DNA of 64,000 bases from NCBI GenBank assembly GCA_944387095.1, contig CALXDP010000003.1, positions 1 to 64,000 on the forward strand. Reading direction: 5' to 3'. Positions within the stretch are counted from its first letter, which is position 1. Each line of letters starts with the position of its first letter. The DNA is from an uncultured Oscillospiraceae bacterium. Its GTDB lineage: Bacteria > Bacillota > Clostridia > Oscillospirales > Oscillospiraceae. The translations under genes and the position numbers were made by a program. The notes below the pieces were generated by a model, which made no database searches, had not been told where the DNA came from, and worked only from the letters and a program-made list of their open reading frames with translations. Below are positions 27,358 through 33,948 of the stretch, one piece after another.

Positions 27358-27424
27358 GAATATATCAAAATAGAATATGCGCCGGGTGATGTTCCATCCT
27401 CCCGGAGACGAAAGGAGACTGCCA

Positions 27425-28813
27425 TTGCACAATCGGTATGATAAGATTTTCCCCCTCACCCTTCTCCTGTCTGCCGCCCTGGCCCTTCTTGGCCTGCTGC
27501 TGGATACCCCGGGAAACATTCTGCCTGGGCTATACAGAATCATCATGATGCAGGATCTGCTGATCACCGACTATGTGTACATCGCCGGGCCGGGGGCCGC
27601 GCTGATCAACGCCGCCGCCGTCACCATCATCACCGTCTGCCTCATCAAATTTACCCGCAACCATTTCAACGGGTTTTCCCTGGTGGAGATCGGGCTGATG
27701 GCCGGCTTCTCCCTGTTCGGGAAAAACTTTGTCAACATCTGGCCCATCATTTTCGGAACCTGGCTATATGCCCGCTATCAAAAAGAACCCTTTTCCAAGC
27801 ACGTCACGGTGGCTCTGCTGGCCACTTCTCTGGCCCCGCTGGTCAGCTACATGGGCCTGGGAAGCATCCACAAGAGCATCCCGCTTGGCATTTTCTCCGG
27901 CATTGTGGTGGGTTTTCTCCTGCCCTCTCTGTCCACCTATACCTATAAGGTGCAAAACGGCATGAATCTCTACAACATGGGGTTTGCCTGCGGCCTGCTG
28001 GCCATGATGATCGTCCCCATCCTCACCGCCTTTGGGGACGCGCCGGACTCCGCCCTCTATTGGGCCCAGGGCTACAATCTCCCCTTCGGGCTGGCCATTG
28101 GCGGGCTGTGCCTGGTGCTGATCGCGCTGGGACTCACCGCCACCGGAACCCCAGCCTGGGCCGTCTGGGCCGGCTACCGCCGGCTGCTGCACACCACGGG
28201 CCGCTCTCCCAGTGACTACCTGCGCATGTTCGGCCCGGGCCCGGTGCTGGTCAATACCGGCATCAACGGCATCGCCGGCATTCTCTATATTCTCATCGTG
28301 GGGGGGAGCCTCAACGGCCCAACCCTAGGCGGCATTTTCACCATCATGGGCTTTTCCGCCTTTGGCAAACATCTGTGCAACATTGTCCCCGTGATGGTTG
28401 GCGTCGCCCTGGGCGCCTACGGTATGCATCAGACACCGGACTACCCCGCCCTCCAGCTGGCAGGGCTATTCGGCACCACCCTGGCCCCCATTGCCGGACA
28501 CTTTGGATGGCCCTACGGCATCCTGGCCGGCTTTATCCACTCGGCCCTGGTCTTGCAGACAGGCGGACCTGTGGCTGGGTTGAACTTGTATAACAACGGC
28601 TTTTCCGGCGGTCTGATCGCCATGGTGTTTTACCCCATCGTCACCGCCATTGGCAAGCACCGCCGCCCCTCGATCCAAGACGAGGAGTACTATGACCTGT
28701 TCTCCGAGGACACCCCAATCAATCCTCCCCTTCAGCCCACCGACCAAGCGGAGGACGACATGCAAGAGAAAGAGCCCACCAGCCCCCAGGGCACCACGGT
28801 GGATCAGGACTGA
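27425..28813 (+). CDS. DUF1576 polytopic membrane protein with internal duplication
   Basis: 462 aa, at least ten hydrophobic segments, with a charged cytosolic tail of about 55 residues. Two repeat units are obvious: GFSLFGKNFVNIWPIIFG matches GFSAFGKHLCNIVPVMVG, and NGMNLYNMGFACGLLAMMI matches AGLNLYNNGFSGGLIAMVF. It belongs to the uncharacterised DUF1576 family; a transporter-like fold is inferred from the duplication. The chosen start is TTG 27425 because AAAGGAG lies 7 nt upstream; ATG 27377 lacks a ribosome-binding site. It is a single-gene unit, so context gives no substrate. Confidence 0.82.
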   Translation: MHNRYDKIFPLTLLLSAALALLGLLLDTPGNILPGLYRIIMMQDLLITDYVYIAGPGAALINAAAVTIITVCLIKFTRNHFNGFSLVEIGLMAGFSLFGKNFVNIWPIIFGTWLYARYQKEPFSKHVTVALLATSLAPLVSYMGLGSIHKSIPLGIFSGIVVGFLLPSLSTYTYKVQNGMNLYNMGFACGLLAMMIVPILTAFGDAPDSALYWAQGYNLPFGLAIGGLCLVLIALGLTATGTPAWAVWAGYRRLLHTTGRSPSDYLRMFGPGPVLVNTGINGIAGILYILIVGGSLNGPTLGGIFTIMGFSAFGKHLCNIVPVMVGVALGAYGMHQTPDYPALQLAGLFGTTLAPIAGHFGWPYGILAGFIHSALVLQTGGPVAGLNLYNNGFSGGLIAMVFYPIVTAIGKHRRPSIQDEEYYDLFSEDTPINPPLQPTDQAEDDMQEKEPTSPQGTTVDQD

Positions 28814-28917: not shown

Positions 28918-29250
28918 TCAGAGTTTGCTCTTGGCCTGGTATGCCTCTCCCCAATTCCACATCGCGTCCAGGATGGGCTTCAGGCTCTTTCCCAGCTCGG
29001 TCAGTGTATATTCCACCCGGGGCGGCACCTCCGGGTACACCGTGCGGGTGAGCAGGCCGCTGGCCTCCATCTCCCGCAGCTGGGCGGTAAGCACCTTTTG
29101 GCTCACGCTCCCAATGGATCTTTTCAGCTCGCCAAACCGCTTTGTCCCCGGCATGAGGTCTCTCAAAATCAGCACCTTCCACTTGTCGCTGATCAGCGTC
29201 AGGGTGGTCTCCACCGGGCAGGCGGGGAGTTCTTTTGCCGTGACCGCCAT
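28918..29250 (-). CDS. HxlR-family transcriptional regulator
   Basis: 110 aa winged helix-turn-helix of the HxlR type: CPVETTLTLISDKWKVLILR, GTKRFGELKRSIGSVSQKVL, TAQLREMEASGLLTRTVYPE and VEYTLTELGKSL. A single Cys at position 11 just before the first helix matches the redox-sensing Cys of YodB/HypR-like members, which respond to disulfide or electrophile stress. ATG 29250 follows GGGAGGAGGAG. Divergent from a SnoaL-like gene with operator-like sequences between, so it most likely controls the 29535-30842 genes and possibly the downstream ADP-ribosylation operon. Confidence 0.9.
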   Translation of the reverse strand: MAVTAKELPACPVETTLTLISDKWKVLILRDLMPGTKRFGELKRSIGSVSQKVLTAQLREMEASGLLTRTVYPEVPPRVEYTLTELGKSLKPILDAMWNWGEAYQAKSKL

Positions 29251-29299
29251 TGAGCTCCTCCTCCCAATCTTATAGTTTCTATTTGGGTTGTATGCCTTA

Positions 29300-29329
29300 A
29301 TATTACTGTATTCCCCGTACAGCTGTCAA
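29300..29329 (-). promoter_or_regulatory. hxlR promoter with palindrome in the spacer
   Basis: Minus strand perfect -35 TTGACA (29324-29329), 18-bp spacer, TAATAT (29300-29305). The spacer contains CTGTA-N7-TACAG (29306-29322), a candidate autoregulatory site. Confidence 0.75.
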
Positions 29330-29396
29330 GAACCCAAAAAATTTTTTCAGGGACCCGAAATCCTCCAAGGCCCTGAAACCGCACAATCGTTTCCTC

Positions 29397-29421
29397 CCGG
29401 TAACCGTCCAATAGTTACCGG
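29397..29421. promoter_or_regulatory. Operator-like inverted repeat CCGGTAAC-N9-GTTACCGG
   Basis: Perfect 8-bp arms at 29397-29404 and 29414-29421, between hxlR and the SnoaL gene. One CCGGTAAC half-site recurs at 30329-30336 in front of the PPOx gene. Confidence 0.65.
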
Positions 29422-29440
29422 AACGTGGCCATAGCACAAA

Positions 29441-29480
29441 ATTGTGCGTACTTTTCAGGGGACTTTGCCGGGTGTATGAT
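29441..29480 (+). promoter_or_regulatory. Promoter of the tandem SnoaL gene with shared 17-bp box
   Basis: The box ATTGTGCGTACTTTTCA (29441-29457) ends in the -35 TTTTCA; after 17 bp comes -10 TATGAT (29475-29480). The same box and geometry occur at 30348-30387. Confidence 0.75.
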
Positions 29481-29534
29481 GCAGACACAAGGACGGGCAA
29501 CCCCCACCGAAACACTTCCAAGGAGGAGACAATC

Positions 29535-30308
29535 ATGGACAACACACAGAAAGCCCTGGAGCTCATCCACACCTTTGCCACCGGCGATACCGAGAAGGCC
29601 AAGAACCTGCTGGCCGAGGGCTACATCCAGCACAACCTGGCCTACGGCACCGGACGGGACGCCTTTCTGGGGTCGGTGGAGTATCTGGCCGCCGCCCCGG
29701 TGAAGACCACGGTAAACAACATCCGGGCCTTCGCTGACGGCGACAAGGTTTTCCTGCACACGGTGTACAACTTCGCCGGGGCCGGGGAGCAGGTGGCCTT
29801 CGACATCTTCCGCTTTGACGGGGACGGCCGAATCGCCGAGCACTGGGACAACCTGGCAGCTGTGGCTGCCCCCAACCCCTCCGGCCGCACCCAGACCGAC
29901 GGCGCCCTGGAGGTTTCCGACCTGGACAAGACCGGGGAAAACAAGGCGCTGGTCCGGAGCTTTGTAGAGGATGTGCTGATGGGCCGCAACCCGGACGCCC
30001 TGACCTTCTACTTTGACGGCAACCGCTACATCCAGCATAACACCGGCATCGCCGACGGGTTGGACGGCCTGGGCTCAGCCCTGGCCGCCATGGCCGAGCA
30101 GGGCGTCCAGATGATCTATACGGAAATCCACATGGTGCTGGGACAGGGCAACTTCGTCCTGGCGGCCAGCGAGGGCACGCTGGGCGGCGTCCCTGTCACC
30201 TACTATGACCTGTTCCGGGCGGAAAACGGCAAGATCGCCGAGCACTGGGACGTGATCGAGAATCTGGCCGACCAATCCACCTGGCAGAACCAAAACGGAA
30301 AGTTCTGA
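29535..30308 (+). CDS. Tandem SnoaL-like (NTF2-fold) protein
   Basis: 257 aa made of two NTF2/SnoaL-like units. Repeat landmarks are YIQHNLAYGTGRDAFLGSVE and DGDGRIAEHWDNL in the first half, and YIQHNTGIADGLDGLGSALA and ENGKIAEHWDVIENL in the second. Family members are small-molecule-binding or isomerase-like proteins. The conserved HN and EHWD residues face the cavity in relatives. The start is ATG 29535, with AGGAGGAG upstream; the longer ORF crosses the promoter. Divergent from hxlR and probably the direct HxlR target. The substrate is unknown. Confidence 0.85.
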   Translation: MDNTQKALELIHTFATGDTEKAKNLLAEGYIQHNLAYGTGRDAFLGSVEYLAAAPVKTTVNNIRAFADGDKVFLHTVYNFAGAGEQVAFDIFRFDGDGRIAEHWDNLAAVAAPNPSGRTQTDGALEVSDLDKTGENKALVRSFVEDVLMGRNPDALTFYFDGNRYIQHNTGIADGLDGLGSALAAMAEQGVQMIYTEIHMVLGQGNFVLAASEGTLGGVPVTYYDLFRAENGKIAEHWDVIENLADQSTWQNQNGKF

Positions 30309-30328
30309 AGAACGGCCACGGTCACCCG

Positions 30329-30387
30329 CCGGTAACTATGCCACATTATTGTGCGTACTTTTCAAACACCAGCCACCGCGCTACAAT
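30329..30387 (+). promoter_or_regulatory. Promoter of the PPOx gene with HxlR-type box
   Basis: Half-site CCGGTAAC (30329-30336), box ATTGTGCGTACTTTTCA (30348-30364) ending in -35 TTTTCA, 17-bp spacer, -10 TACAAT (30382-30387). Identical 17-base box to the SnoaL promoter about 0.9 kb upstream. Confidence 0.78.
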
Positions 30388-30440
30388 AAGAATAACGAAA
30401 GAAAACCACCCTTGCGAAAACAAATTGGAGGTACCTCACC

Positions 30441-30842
30441 ATGAACGAAGTCGTGAAATTCTTAAACGAGAACCCTGTTCAGTACCTGGCCACCGTGGGC
30501 CGGGACGGCAGGGCCAAGTGCCGCCCCTTTATGTTTGCCGGCGAGATGGACGGCAAGCTGTGGTTCTGCACCAACAACACCAAGGATGTTTACAAGGACA
30601 TGCAGGCCAACCCCAACATCGAGATCTCCGTGTCCAGTCCTACCTACGCCTGGATCCGCCTGAACGGCAAAGCGGTGTTTGAGAACAACCACGCCGTCAA
30701 GGAGATGTGCCTCCAGAACCCCATCGTCAAGAGCCAGTACCAGACCGCCGGCAACCCCATCTTCGAGGTGTTCCATCTGGCCGGCGCCCGGGCGGTGATC
30801 GCCGACTTCTCCGGCAACCCGCCCCGGGAGTACACCCTGTAA
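30441..30842 (+). CDS. Pyridoxamine 5'-phosphate oxidase family (FMN-binding split barrel) protein
   Basis: 133 aa. MNEVVKFLNENPVQYLATVG, CRPFMFAGEMDGKLWFCTNN and IEISVSSPTYAWIRLNG follow the strand order of PPOx-like split barrels that bind FMN or F420. It lacks the C-terminal PNPOx dimerisation segment, so vitamin B6 oxidation is unlikely; a flavin reductase or detoxification role is more usual. It has its own promoter with the shared box, so it belongs to the same regulon as the SnoaL gene. A 78-nt gap separates it from the ferredoxin fusion gene. Confidence 0.85.
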   Translation: MNEVVKFLNENPVQYLATVGRDGRAKCRPFMFAGEMDGKLWFCTNNTKDVYKDMQANPNIEISVSSPTYAWIRLNGKAVFENNHAVKEMCLQNPIVKSQYQTAGNPIFEVFHLAGARAVIADFSGNPPREYTL

Positions 30843-30920
30843 GCGAAACCTGCGGGAAGTCCCCCAGGCCGATCCCGGCCCGGGGACTTCCCGCCATTGC
30901 AAGCGAGGGGGCCAAACGCC

Positions 30921-31544
30921 ATGACCACACAGGAAATTCTGGATATTTTACAGCGGGACATCCACTCCGCCGTCTTTGCCACCGTGGACGACCAGTGCCT
31001 GCCTCAGACCTGCGTCATCGACCTGATGCTCTCCGACGGAGAAGGGCTCTACTTCCTCACCGCCCGGGGCAAGTCCTTCTACCACCGGCTCATGGTCCGG
31101 CCCTATGTGGCCATCTCCGGCAGGAAGGGGGAGGACACCCTCTCCTCCGTGGCCATCTCGGTGCAGGGGGCAGTGCGGAGTATCGGGAAGGAACGGCTGG
31201 AGGAGATCTTCAAGAAAAACCCCTACATGGCCAAAATCTACCCCACGGAGCAGAGCCGGGACGCCCTGGAGGTGTTCCAACTCTACCGGGGAAAAGGGGA
31301 GTACTTCGACCTGTCCCAACAGCCCCCCTTCCGCCAGACCTTCTCCTTTGGCGGGGAGACCTTCCACCAGACCGGATATCGCATCAACCCGGACAAGTGC
31401 ATCGGCTGCCAGGGGTGCCGCAGCGTGTGCCCCTCCGGCTGCATCAGCAGCACCATCCCCCGGGTCATCGACCCGTCCCACTGCCTCCACTGCGGCAACT
31501 GCTTCCGCATCTGCCCGGTGAAGGCGGTGGAGAAGCTGGACTGA
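30921..31544 (+). CDS. PPOx-like domain fused to a 2[4Fe-4S] ferredoxin
   Basis: 207 aa. Residues 1 to about 135 form a PPOx-type split barrel (DIHSAVFATVDDQCLPQTCV; GLYFLTARGKSFYHRLM). Residues 155-200 form a bacterial ferredoxin with two full cysteine sets: C160-x2-C163-x2-C166-x3-C170 and C188-x2-C191-x2-C194-x3-C198. This predicts a flavoprotein with a built-in two-cluster electron entry, suited to a strict anaerobe. ATG 30921 has GAGGGGG upstream. It is the first gene of a tight run with the macrodomain hydrolase (12-nt gap) and SirTM. Confidence 0.88.
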   Translation: MTTQEILDILQRDIHSAVFATVDDQCLPQTCVIDLMLSDGEGLYFLTARGKSFYHRLMVRPYVAISGRKGEDTLSSVAISVQGAVRSIGKERLEEIFKKNPYMAKIYPTEQSRDALEVFQLYRGKGEYFDLSQQPPFRQTFSFGGETFHQTGYRINPDKCIGCQGCRSVCPSGCISSTIPRVIDPSHCLHCGNCFRICPVKAVEKLD

Positions 31545-31556
31545 GGAGAGATTTTC

Positions 31557-32369
31557 ATGGACCGTCTGGAACAGCTGCTGTACCTCAACGAGAAGCTGTT
31601 GGCGGACTTGCCCCAGTACGCCGGGCAGGCCGCCGCCTTTCCCCGGGAGGAGCGGGGCCAGCGCCAGCTGCTGCGCGCCCTGATGAACCTCCGCCCGCCC
31701 CTGCCCCTGGACCGGGAGTTCCTAGCGGTGCAGGATGCACTGCTGGGCGCGGAGCGGGAGGAGCGGGGCGTGGTGGACGCCCAGGCTCTGCCCGTGACCG
31801 CCGCCGATCCCCGCCTGGCCATCTGGCAGGGGGATATCACCACCTTGCAGGCGGACGCCATCGTCAACGCCGCCAACTCCGCCCTGCTGGGCTGTTTTGT
31901 CCCCTGCCACGGCTGCATTGACAATGCCATCCACTCGGCGGCGGGGCTCCAGCTTCGGGAGGAATGCCACCGGCTCATAGAGGCTCAGGGCCATCCGGAG
32001 CCCAACGGCCAGGCCAAACTCACCCTGGGCTACAACCTCCCCGCCCGGCATGTGCTCCACACCGTGGGGCCCATCGTCCGCGGCCGGGTGACCGGGCAGA
32101 ACCGGGCCGACTTGGCCTCCTGCTACCGCGCCTGTCTGGAGCTGGCGGCGGAGCATGGACTTGCCAGCGTGGTCTTCTGCTGCATCTCCACCGGGGAGTT
32201 CCATTTCCCGAACCAGGAGGCGGCAAAAATCGCCGTGGAAACGGTTGCCGCCTTCCTCCGGCAAAGCACATCCATTGAGAAGGTGATCTTTAATGTGTTC
32301 AAGGATCTTGACGCCGCCCTCTACCGGGCCATCCTCGGACCGGATCGAAGCACTGAGGCGGGCGCTTAA
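31557..32369 (+). CDS. Zinc-dependent macrodomain protein-ADP-ribose hydrolase (Zn-Macro)
   Basis: 270 aa. A helical N-terminal extension (about 1-75) precedes a macrodomain with IWQGDITTLQADAIVNAANS and the Zn-Macro signature GCFVPCHGCIDNAIHSAAG (Cys117, His118, Cys120 zone), then GYNLPARHVLHTVGPI and CCISTGEFHFPNQEAA. This class removes ADP-ribose added to target proteins by its neighbour SirTM. ATG 31557 follows GAGGAG. It overlaps the SirTM gene by 77 nt, indicating coupled synthesis of writer and eraser. The usual third partners, GcvH-L and LplA2, are not in the window. Confidence 0.94.
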   Translation: MDRLEQLLYLNEKLLADLPQYAGQAAAFPREERGQRQLLRALMNLRPPLPLDREFLAVQDALLGAEREERGVVDAQALPVTAADPRLAIWQGDITTLQADAIVNAANSALLGCFVPCHGCIDNAIHSAAGLQLREECHRLIEAQGHPEPNGQAKLTLGYNLPARHVLHTVGPIVRGRVTGQNRADLASCYRACLELAAEHGLASVVFCCISTGEFHFPNQEAAKIAVETVAAFLRQSTSIEKVIFNVFKDLDAALYRAILGPDRSTEAGA

Positions 32370-33210
32370 AAAAGCCGGCGCCATCCTCATTGGCGCGGGG
32401 GCCGGCCTGTCCGCATCCGCCGGCTTTGTTTATAGCGGGGAGCGGTTTCATCGCTATTTTGCTGATTTTGAGGCAAAATACGGTTTCCATGATATGTATT
32501 CCGGAGGATTTTACCTGTTCCCAACCCTGGAGGAGCAATGGGCTTATTGGAGCCGGTTTATCTATCTCAACCGCTACTGTAACCCGCCCAAACCTGTACA
32601 CGCTGCTTTGCTGGATGCGGTAAAAGATCAGGACTATTTCGTCCTCACCACCAATGTGGATCACTGCTTTCAAAAGGCGGGCTTTGACAGACGCCGCCTG
32701 TTTTACACCCAGGGGGATTATGGCCTGTGGCAGTGTTCCAGGCCCTGCCACGATAAAACCTATGAGAATGAAGCGATTGTCCGTGAGATGGTAAAGGCCC
32801 AGGGCTTTCGCGTTACGGAGGAAGGGCTGGAATTTCCGATTGGCTCCGCCCCCAAAATGGACATTCCCACTGAGCTGGTTCCCCATTGCCCAAAATGCGG
32901 TGCACCGATGTCGATGAACCTGCGGGCCGATAATACCTTTGTGCAAGATGCGGGCTGGTACGCCGCCGCGGGGCGCTATGACGATTTTGTCCGCCGCCAT
33001 GATGGCACGCCCATTCTCTATTTGGAACTGGGCGTCGGCCTGAACACCCCGGGGATCATCAAGTTCCCATTCTGGCAGATGACCGCCCGGAACCCGGAGG
33101 CAGCCTACGCCTGCGTCAACTTTGGGGAAGCCTATGCGCCCAGGGAGATTGCGGACCGCTCCATCTGCATCCGGGAGGACATCGGCGCGGTGTTGGAAAA
33201 GTTGAGATAG
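32293..33210 (+). CDS. Class M sirtuin protein ADP-ribosyltransferase (SirTM)
   Basis: 305 aa. NAD-binding Rossmann core with GAGAGLSASAGFVYSGERF (34-52) and the class M landmarks KYGFHDMYSGGFY, TTNVDHCFQKAGF (Asn121) and FYTQGDYGLWQC. The canonical deacetylase His is replaced by Gln140. Asn and Gln at these places support ADP-ribosylation rather than deacylation, as known for SirTM. A Cys4 zinc site is formed by Cys148/Cys152 and Cys199/Cys202. ATG 32293 has AAGGTG 8 nt upstream and lies inside the macrodomain gene. The target here is unknown: the classical target, lipoylated GcvH-L, is not encoded nearby. Confidence 0.94.
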   Translation: MCSRILTPPSTGPSSDRIEALRRALKKAGAILIGAGAGLSASAGFVYSGERFHRYFADFEAKYGFHDMYSGGFYLFPTLEEQWAYWSRFIYLNRYCNPPKPVHAALLDAVKDQDYFVLTTNVDHCFQKAGFDRRRLFYTQGDYGLWQCSRPCHDKTYENEAIVREMVKAQGFRVTEEGLEFPIGSAPKMDIPTELVPHCPKCGAPMSMNLRADNTFVQDAGWYAAAGRYDDFVRRHDGTPILYLELGVGLNTPGIIKFPFWQMTARNPEAAYACVNFGEAYAPREIADRSICIREDIGAVLEKLR

Positions 33211-33217
33211 GTAAAAC

Positions 33218-33252
33218 ACAGCGGCCGGCCCCGTCCCGGGGCCGGCCGCTGT
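33218..33252 (+). terminator. Terminator-like hairpin after SirTM
   Basis: 15-16-bp perfect GC-rich stem CAGCGGCCGGCCCCG (33219-33233) / CGGGGCCGGCCGCTG (33237-33251) with loop TCC. The following bases are CCGCATTTCGATCTTTTTGC, only moderately T-rich. The opposing XRE gene ends 50 nt away, so it may act in both directions. Confidence 0.8.
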
Positions 33253-33303: not shown

Positions 33304-33948
33304 TCACGCGCTCCTCCCCCGCCGAACCTGCCGAAGCACCACCGCCGTGCAAATGGCAATATACACCAGCCAAAACAGGACATAGAGCAGAACTGCCATA
33401 CCGGTTCCGCTGTGCAAGGCAAGCAGCGGATAGGGCGCCGCTCCGGTGTCCAGCAGCACATTGTAGCACACCGACAGGGGCAGAAAGACCAGCAGCCAGA
33501 TATTCACCGTCCAGAAGTTCCGCTTTGCCCGGGGTTTGGAGTCTGGGGCGGATTCCACCATGCCGACGCCGAATACCATGCACCCCAGGGCCAGGAAAAC
33601 GCCCCCAATGATGAGCGCTCCCGCCTCCTGCTCCTCATACCACACGGCGCAGCTCACCAGCACCCCGATAAAGTTCAAAACGGTGGCCACAATGGTGAAA
33701 ATGCGCCCGTCCGGCTTTTTCTCCTTTGGGCCGGCGGCGGGCGGGACAGGCTCAATGCCCTTGAGTAGGTAGTCGGTGGTCACCTCAAAATAGTCGCTGA
33801 GCAGGATGATTTTATCCATGTCCGGCATACTCTGCTCGCTCTCCCACTTGCTCACCGCCTGGCGGGACACCCCCACCCGGTCGGCCAGTTCCTCCTGGGA
33901 GATCCCTTTCTGTTTTCTCAACTGCTGAATCCGGTCCGCCAACGTCAT
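33304..33948 (-). CDS. XRE-type regulator with C-terminal membrane domain
   Basis: 214 aa. An N-terminal helix-turn-helix (RIQQLRKQKGISQEELADRV; GVSRQAVSKWESEQSMPDMD) is followed by a linker and four predicted membrane helices (about 82-104, 109-130, 147-168, 180-205). This is the common Firmicutes layout of a membrane-tethered repressor that senses an envelope signal. Its upstream region carries five alternating GGTTG/CAACC half-sites (33999-34046), fitting autoregulation. No downstream partner on the same strand, so its other targets are elsewhere. Confidence 0.88.
   Translation of the reverse strand: MTLADRIQQLRKQKGISQEELADRVGVSRQAVSKWESEQSMPDMDKIILLSDYFEVTTDYLLKGIEPVPPAAGPKEKKPDGRIFTIVATVLNFIGVLVSCAVWYEEQEAGALIIGGVFLALGCMVFGVGMVESAPDSKPRAKRNFWTVNIWLLVFLPLSVCYNVLLDTGAAPYPLLALHSGTGMAVLLYVLFWLVYIAICTAVVLRQVRRGRSA

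Follow-up and report, generated by a model that had tools for sequence, protein, structure and literature searches.

A SirTM/Zn-Macro ADP-ribosylation pair in a predicted HxlR-controlled redox operon of an uncultured Oscillospiraceae bacterium

Introduction

Members of the SirTM family (class M sirtuins) transfer ADP-ribose from NAD to proteins, and members of the zinc macrodomain (Zn-Macro) family remove it. In staphylococcal and streptococcal operons that also encode GcvH-L and LplA2, lipoylated GcvH-L is the protein known to be tagged in this way. The closest described setting of such a writer/eraser pair is the extended SirTM operon of Staphylococcus and Streptococcus, where, as far as the operon descriptions in two papers go, flavin-dependent oxidoreductases adjoin the pair in a redox-stress setting (Rack 2015, PMC4518038; Ariza 2024, PMC11490716). 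Pairs without GcvH-L have also been published, as an independent or minimal operon (e.g., Methanobrevibacter oralis MorMacro), and the sections of these papers on that operon give the targets as not known (PMC4518038, PMC11490716). Here we describe a locus of an uncultured gut Oscillospiraceae bacterium (class Clostridia) in which genes for an HxlR regulator, a tandem SnoaL protein, a PPOx protein, a fusion of PPOx with a 2[4Fe-4S] ferredoxin domain (PPOx-Fd), Zn-Macro and SirTM lie in a row (Table 1). The locus occupies positions 28918-33210 of a stretch of 64,000 nucleotides, called the window below, which is positions 1 to 64,000 of contig CALXDP010000003.1 (assembly GCA_944387095.1).

The locus resembles the extended operon in its SirTM/Zn-Macro motifs, adjoining flavin-dependent enzymes and redox setting, and differs from it in that GcvH-L, LplA2, OYE and luciferase-like monooxygenase (LLM) are missing and HxlR, SnoaL, PPOx and PPOx-Fd are there instead. 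With the minimal operon it shares a pair without GcvH-L, but the pair of the window sits in a redox regulon defined by a predicted operator. The HypR, YodB and CatR regulons of Bacillus subtilis likewise have a DUF24 regulator with an N-terminal Cys and flavin oxidoreductase targets, and to our knowledge they contain no ADP-ribosylation genes. The YwnB-like reductase and the Rrf2 regulators of the SifR (Rrf2) quinone regulon of Streptococcus pneumoniae recur in sister loci of the window, but in the window the regulator is HxlR, and the operon lacks a YwnB-like gene.

A preliminary description of this DNA had called the locus its best candidate for an undescribed system. That is true only in part: pairs without GcvH-L are already in print, but the redox regulon around the pair seems to be new. 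HxlR, pyridoxamine, SnoaL, radical SAM and ferredoxin are absent from the main text of PMC4518038 and PMC11490716, no paper in the open-licence literature searched brings macrodomain, sirtuin and HxlR together, and the redox setting of the pair was not found in that literature, figures and supplements lying outside the search.

A Predicted Writer and Eraser in a Genome with No GcvH Match

At 18.5 bits, the window's SirTM does not reach the Pfam cut-off for SIR2 (24 bits); it is identified by its match to Streptococcus pyogenes SirTM (5a3a). Q140-G141 replaces the catalytic HG of sirtuins and is invariant in 16 aligned SirTM proteins, as is R211, which probably corresponds to Arg192 of SpySirTM; N121 and the class motif GVGLNTP at 247, which fits GVGx[NT]TP, are also present. 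Zn-Macro matches Pfam Macro (3.6e-38) and the NCBIfam protein-ADP-ribose hydrolase NF003163 (332 bits, cut-off 272), and it aligns with 8rsi from residue 22, in its N-terminal extension. Its zinc loop, CFVPCHGC at residue 113, has the form Cx4HxC, and NAAN and Dx3H stand at 104 and 122. The replacement of HG by QG, N121, the class motif, Cx4HxC, NAAN and Dx3H are those given for the two families in the motif descriptions of PMC4518038 and PMC11490716. The catalytic motifs of both proteins are intact. The two genes overlap by 77 nt, and the pairing is seen again in many genera, beyond chance.

The preliminary description had noted that neither carrier nor ligase lies beside the pair, and that a GcvH-L/LplA2 couple elsewhere in the genome, if modified by this SirTM, would speak against another target. 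No such couple was found: the draft genome (2.03 Mb, 93% complete), window included, has no match to GcvH and none to the LplA/LipB catalytic domain, and its four biotin/lipoyl domains all read EAMKM, which we take to be the biotin motif. Because of these three observations, lipoyl-GcvH-L is very unlikely to be the SirTM target here, judging from the genome sequence, and was set aside for this organism. Neither OYE nor LLM is among the eight proteins scanned between 27377 and 33948.

The picture in relatives is less uniform. Among 25 genomes with PPOx-Fd beside SirTM, two (G165 and G282) have a strong GcvH, six more have weak partial GCV_H matches, some over the family cut-off, which we take for biotin carriers, and five have LplA/LipB over cut-off. 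In genome G385 (locus L085), a GcvH lies about 1.1 kb upstream of SirTM in a 284-residue open frame, with no Zn-Macro match in the region, which counts against a clean split between GcvH and non-GcvH SirTM loci.

PPOx-Ferredoxin and Its Linkage to the Pair

The PPOx half of PPOx-Fd falls just below its Pfam cut-off (26.6 vs 28.1 bits), but the predicted structure has a confident PPOx barrel (predicted local distance difference test, pLDDT, 94.8). Both CxxCxxCxxxC sets are invariant in 50 aligned proteins. Foldseek likens the barrel to the PPOx 2hhz and to NimC/NimA 2ig6. Among the 60 PDB matches listed, out of 187, no single entry covers both halves. The model of the tandem SnoaL protein (pLDDT 91.5) resembles the epoxide hydrolases Lsd19/MonB and ketosteroid isomerases. 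Since the PPOx-Fd matches are at domain level only, and the whole-chain template modelling (TM) scores of the SnoaL model are 0.37-0.41, no substrate is read from either fold.

At E 0.001, a SirTM match was obtained for 76 of the 391 genomes searched in the class. Sixty regions were taken from matches of E about 1e-59 or better, which leaves out some contig-edge or fragment matches (G076, G360 and G048, as well as the second pieces from G026 and G279) together with every weaker match, among them those of G165 and G282, both with PPOx-Fd nearby. Zn-Macro is matched in 57 of the 60 regions, and HxlR lies within 6.5 kb in 29. With the window's PPOx-Fd as sole query, the 391 genomes gave 33 matches of E < 1e-30 in 31 genomes, most of the weaker matches being ferredoxin domains. 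Judged by position, 25 of these 33 matches have a SirTM within 5 kb, and the remaining eight belong to G325, G350 (two), G314 (two), G148, G337 and G316. SirTM is present in 29 of the 31 PPOx-Fd genomes and in 38 of the 360 others (Fisher 5e-23, relatedness uncorrected, nine genomes with weak SirTM set aside).

We also examined the best 80 of at least 556 named loci found with a profile of 15 PPOx-Fd proteins, all from the window or from SirTM regions. In 62 of them, a Zn-Macro or SirTM gene of the same strand lies at most 5 kb away, and in 52 at most 150 nt away; five of the 18 loci without linkage run out of contig within 300 nt. The 62 linked loci include genes for YwnB-like proteins (21), SnoaL (14) and PPOx (14), and one, L102 of Candidatus Intestinimonas stercoravium, has the complete gene order of the window. 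L063 and L150 are one and the same locus. The preliminary description had proposed tabulating the neighbours of such pairs and had taken an unconserved PPOx-ferredoxin neighbour as evidence against its reading; the tabulation shows that PPOx-Fd recurs as a neighbour in related genomes. One SirTM region has, close to PPOx-Fd, a second flavin/Fe-S fusion, a nitroreductase that carries a 2[4Fe-4S] domain at its N terminus (L061:3281-4138).

Predicted Operators and Probable HxlR Control

The hxlR-SnoaL and SnoaL-PPOx gaps have the exact 17-mer ATTGTGCGTACTTTTCA in common, and with up to three mismatches only 0.03 matches to the operator pattern are expected in the window. Scanning this region for promoter consensus sequences gave three promoter-like sites, compared to 1.1 in shuffles: that of hxlR itself and one at each 17-mer, so that both predicted operon promoters, P1 and P2, are overlapped by a predicted operator. 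Of 51 hxlR regions (50 distinct), 39 carry the core GTGCKTACTT on the strand of the operon, compared to 1.5 in random segments, and Cys11 is kept in 50 of 51 aligned HxlR proteins. The HxlR control that the preliminary description had suggested is likely, given the two identical predicted operators and the conserved Cys.

A 34-nt form of the operator was sought in 28 genomes, picked for carrying SirTM and HxlR, so that the search shows regulon content and not frequency. It gave 21 occurrences in 13 of the genomes and none for a reversed control. The first gene after these sites encodes a YwnB-like protein (5), Zn-Macro (4, two sites preceding one gene), a family of about 265 residues (4), PPOx (3), PPOx-Fd (3), SnoaL (1) or an unassigned protein (1). 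In G325 the site precedes a SnoaL gene on the PPOx-Fd contig, not on the SirTM contig. Apart from its two exact copies, the source genome yields two operator-like sites, G000:C2:119132 and G000:C3:129121, each with three mismatches. Alone they are meaningless, because the reversed pattern also gave two matches in this genome, and the first, inside a frame that we read as a recombinase, was taken as chance. The family of about 265 residues lies directly behind the predicted operator in L187, L192, L193 and L198, and neither Pfam (E 0.01) nor the PDB gave a match for its L187 member.

A Proposed Stress Regulon and Mechanism

The solved relatives of the window's HxlR include YybR (4a5m, presumably HypR), HxlR (7bzd) and YodB (5hs7). 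According to the passages of PMC6943732 on these regulators, HypR, YodB and CatR of B. subtilis sense HOCl, quinones and diamide through an N-terminal Cys, and HxlR has a role in aldehyde detoxification. The YwnB-like protein of L084 matches 4r01 (1.7e-72), described in the relevant part of PMC9218516 as the quinone reductase of the SifR regulon. We read the set of genes linked to the predicted operator as a thiol/electrophile-stress regulon.

The explanation that we favour, with some confidence, is that the locus is an HxlR-controlled thiol/electrophile-stress operon in which tandem SnoaL, PPOx and PPOx-Fd are co-expressed with a reversible SirTM/Zn-Macro ADP-ribosylation switch. Judging from the DNA, reduced HxlR would bind the two identical operators over P1 and P2 and repress the operon. 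An electrophile or oxidant would then modify Cys11 and release HxlR, as its relatives suggest, and the flavin/Fe-S enzymes would presumably clear the electrophile. SirTM would transfer ADP-ribose from NAD to a protein other than lipoyl-GcvH-L, the likeliest target being one of the redox proteins of this regulon, and Zn-Macro would remove it; turning this modification on and off would couple the stress response to NAD status.

Several observations weigh against this explanation. PPOx-Fd lies within 6.5 kb in only 21 of the 60 SirTM regions (22 by script, one 56-bit match being dropped), and the linkage rate in the named loci is biased upwards because the profile was built from SirTM-linked copies and only the best 80 loci were considered. 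The exact core is missing from 11 of the 50 distinct hxlR regions, and the 34-nt form from 15 of the 28 genomes. The regulator also varies: HxlR is found in 20 of the 62 linked loci, Rrf2 in 25 and neither in 18 (either in 44). Finally, the inducer type is deduced from relatives, and the source genome is a draft in 62 contigs.

Which Protein Is Modified?

The preliminary description had named PPOx-Fd as a possible substrate. This is a special case of the last step above, in which PPOx-Fd would be the specific SirTM substrate and ADP-ribose would control how electrons pass between the Fe-S and FMN sites of the protein. PPOx-Fd is the best single candidate, although we consider it rather unlikely to be the target. 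It is often the immediate neighbour of the pair, often overlapping Zn-Macro, its co-occurrence with SirTM at the genome level (above) counts in its favour, and its conserved acidic residues (D23, D34, D39, E127, D130 and others) are possible acceptors. Over 71 loci, SirTM and PPOx-Fd distances correlate at 0.40, or 0.27 given Zn-Macro (permutation p 0.0005, phylogeny uncorrected), but Zn-Macro tracks SirTM at 0.72, and Zn-Macro and PPOx-Fd correlate at only 0.03 given SirTM. In 39 of the 60 SirTM regions PPOx-Fd is not found within 6.5 kb, and its linkage label requires 26 changes on a quick SirTM tree of 98 rows, at least 8 of these on starred branches. When 63 linked rows were compared with 13 unlinked copies (5 truncated ones dropped), the acidic residues were about equally conserved, and the single column that separated the two by our filter was S75 (86% vs 6 of 13). 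The preliminary reading is supported for a pair in a genome in which no lipoyl-GcvH-L system was found, a recurrent PPOx-Fd and likely HxlR control, but not for PPOx-Fd as the substrate. A co-evolving PPOx-Fd substrate was set aside: the partial correlation is weak, and no acidic residue is specific to SirTM-linked copies.

A second alternative, which we consider somewhat less likely than not, is that the pair is a stand-alone stress switch acting on one or more housekeeping targets, the redox genes being mere neighbours under the same stress regulator. In L037, L041 and L080, hxlR directly faces Zn-Macro-SirTM with the operator in between. The Zn-Macro of a minimal operon, in the assays described in part of PMC11490716, did not demodify GcvH-L but removed Glu/Asp-linked ADP-ribose from PARP1. 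However, redox genes adjoin or overlap the pair in 52 of the best 80 named loci, a biased sample, and in 25 of the 33 PPOx-Fd matches, which is closer than shared regulation by itself would require. Sirtuin and macrodomain genes also occur in defence and toxin-antitoxin systems, and the block has an accessory look, missing as it is from the matching place in a congener, but we regard a role of the cassette in anti-phage defence or as a toxin-antitoxin module as highly improbable. At E 0.01, PADLOC has no model for SirTM, Zn-Macro, HxlR, SnoaL or PPOx and gives only a weak BrxP match to the Fe-S part of PPOx-Fd, so that its models lend no support, and the redox-regulatory setting also speaks against defence.

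To return to the predicted regulon, its shared predicted operator provides a short list of co-regulated proteins as candidate targets, which are also found in named strains, e.g., Bittarella massiliensis GD6 and Eubacterium barkeri VPI 5359, and the target question is therefore open to bench work.

An Orphan ACGX Peptide System at SirTM Loci

An open frame with three or more ACG is present in 13 of the 60 SirTM regions (L044, L046, L049, L051, L052, L054, L056, L062, L066, L069, L071, L073 and L074). These regions have an orphan ACGX-repeat peptide, mostly with a radical-SAM maturase, near hxlR and SirTM, and the one peptide and one maturase that were tested are TIGR04341 and TIGR04340. Sixteen maturase loci over cut-off were found in 15 genomes of the class. 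Judged by position, 12 have a SirTM within 4 kb; of the other four, two are beside PPOx-Fd (one weak, 4e-16) and two beside neither. SirTM is present in all 15 of these genomes and in none of three with sub-cut-off matches. The system, which ties an orphan peptide to ADP-ribosylation genes, resembles the window's locus in that, in a set of sister loci, it takes up the space that separates hxlR from the gene for PPOx-Fd or Zn-Macro, but the source genome has no TIGR04340 match over the family cut-off. A frame with three or more ACG was sought in the window only, and there is none. No paper on the ACGX system is recognisable by title among the matches listed in the open-licence literature.

Our hypothesis is that ACGX provides a carrier and maturase standing in for GcvH-L/LplA2 at SirTM loci. 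As a wider speculation, and an unlikely one in our view, SirTM/Zn-Macro may be an ADP-ribosylation switch that is portable among redox-carrier modules, in which lineages exchange one carrier, along with the maturase belonging to it, for another: lipoyl-GcvH-L/LplA2 in Bacilli, in some Clostridia the Cys-rich ACGX peptide with a radical-SAM enzyme as maturase, and in the window's branch PPOx-Fd as a built-in FMN/2[4Fe-4S] carrier.

Gene Order and Flanking Genes

A check of the open reading frames placed all six genes where the preliminary description had put them, and its 12-nt gap between PPOx-Fd and Zn-Macro and its 77-nt overlap between Zn-Macro and SirTM are exact.

Table 1. Features of the SirTM/Zn-Macro locus in the window.
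Feature	Position	Strand	Evidence
HxlR-type (DUF24) regulator, single Cys11	28918..29250	-	Pfam PF01638 1e-35
Predicted hxlR promoter TTGACA-18-TAATAT	29300..29329	-	consensus scan
Inverted repeat upstream of operator core 1, GGTAAC-9-GTTACC	29399..29419	.	comparable half-sites in alignments of hxlR regions
Predicted operator core, copy 1, overlaps P1 -35	29441..29457	+	exact 17-mer common with copy 2
Predicted promoter P1 TTTTCA-17-TATGAT	29452..29480	+	consensus scan
Tandem SnoaL-like (NTF2/KSI fold) protein	29535..30308 (start chosen by us)	+	SnoaL_2 in two stretches
Predicted operator, copy 2, 34-nt form with 2 mismatches	30331..30364 (core 30348-30364)	+	pattern search
Predicted promoter P2 TTTTCA-17-TACAAT	30359..30387	+	consensus scan
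PPOx (FMN split-barrel family) protein	30441..30842	+	PF01243 9e-14
PPOx fused to 2[4Fe-4S] ferredoxin domain (PPOx-Fd)	30921..31544	+	Fer4 in two stretches; PNPOx_N under cut-off
Zn-Macro, zinc macrodomain ADP-ribosyl hydrolase (predicted eraser)	31557..32369	+	8rsi 1e-74; NF003163
SirTM, class M sirtuin ADP-ribosyltransferase (predicted writer)	32293..33210	+	5a3a 3e-66
16-bp perfect hairpin after operon; terminator-like on minus strand only	33218..33252	.	hairpin/terminator scan

The GC (guanine plus cytosine) profile gives no clear island signal. The operon is flanked by a DUF1576 gene (27377-28813) and a helix-turn-helix gene (33304-33948), neither of which matches in the corresponding stretch of the congener G035. 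SirTM is not found in G035. What we read, without a family search, as a glutamyl-tRNA-synthetase homologue and ftsZ form the flanks there; they are about 70 bp apart in their aligned parts, compared to 6.8 kb in the window, and for this reason the block is considered to be accessory.

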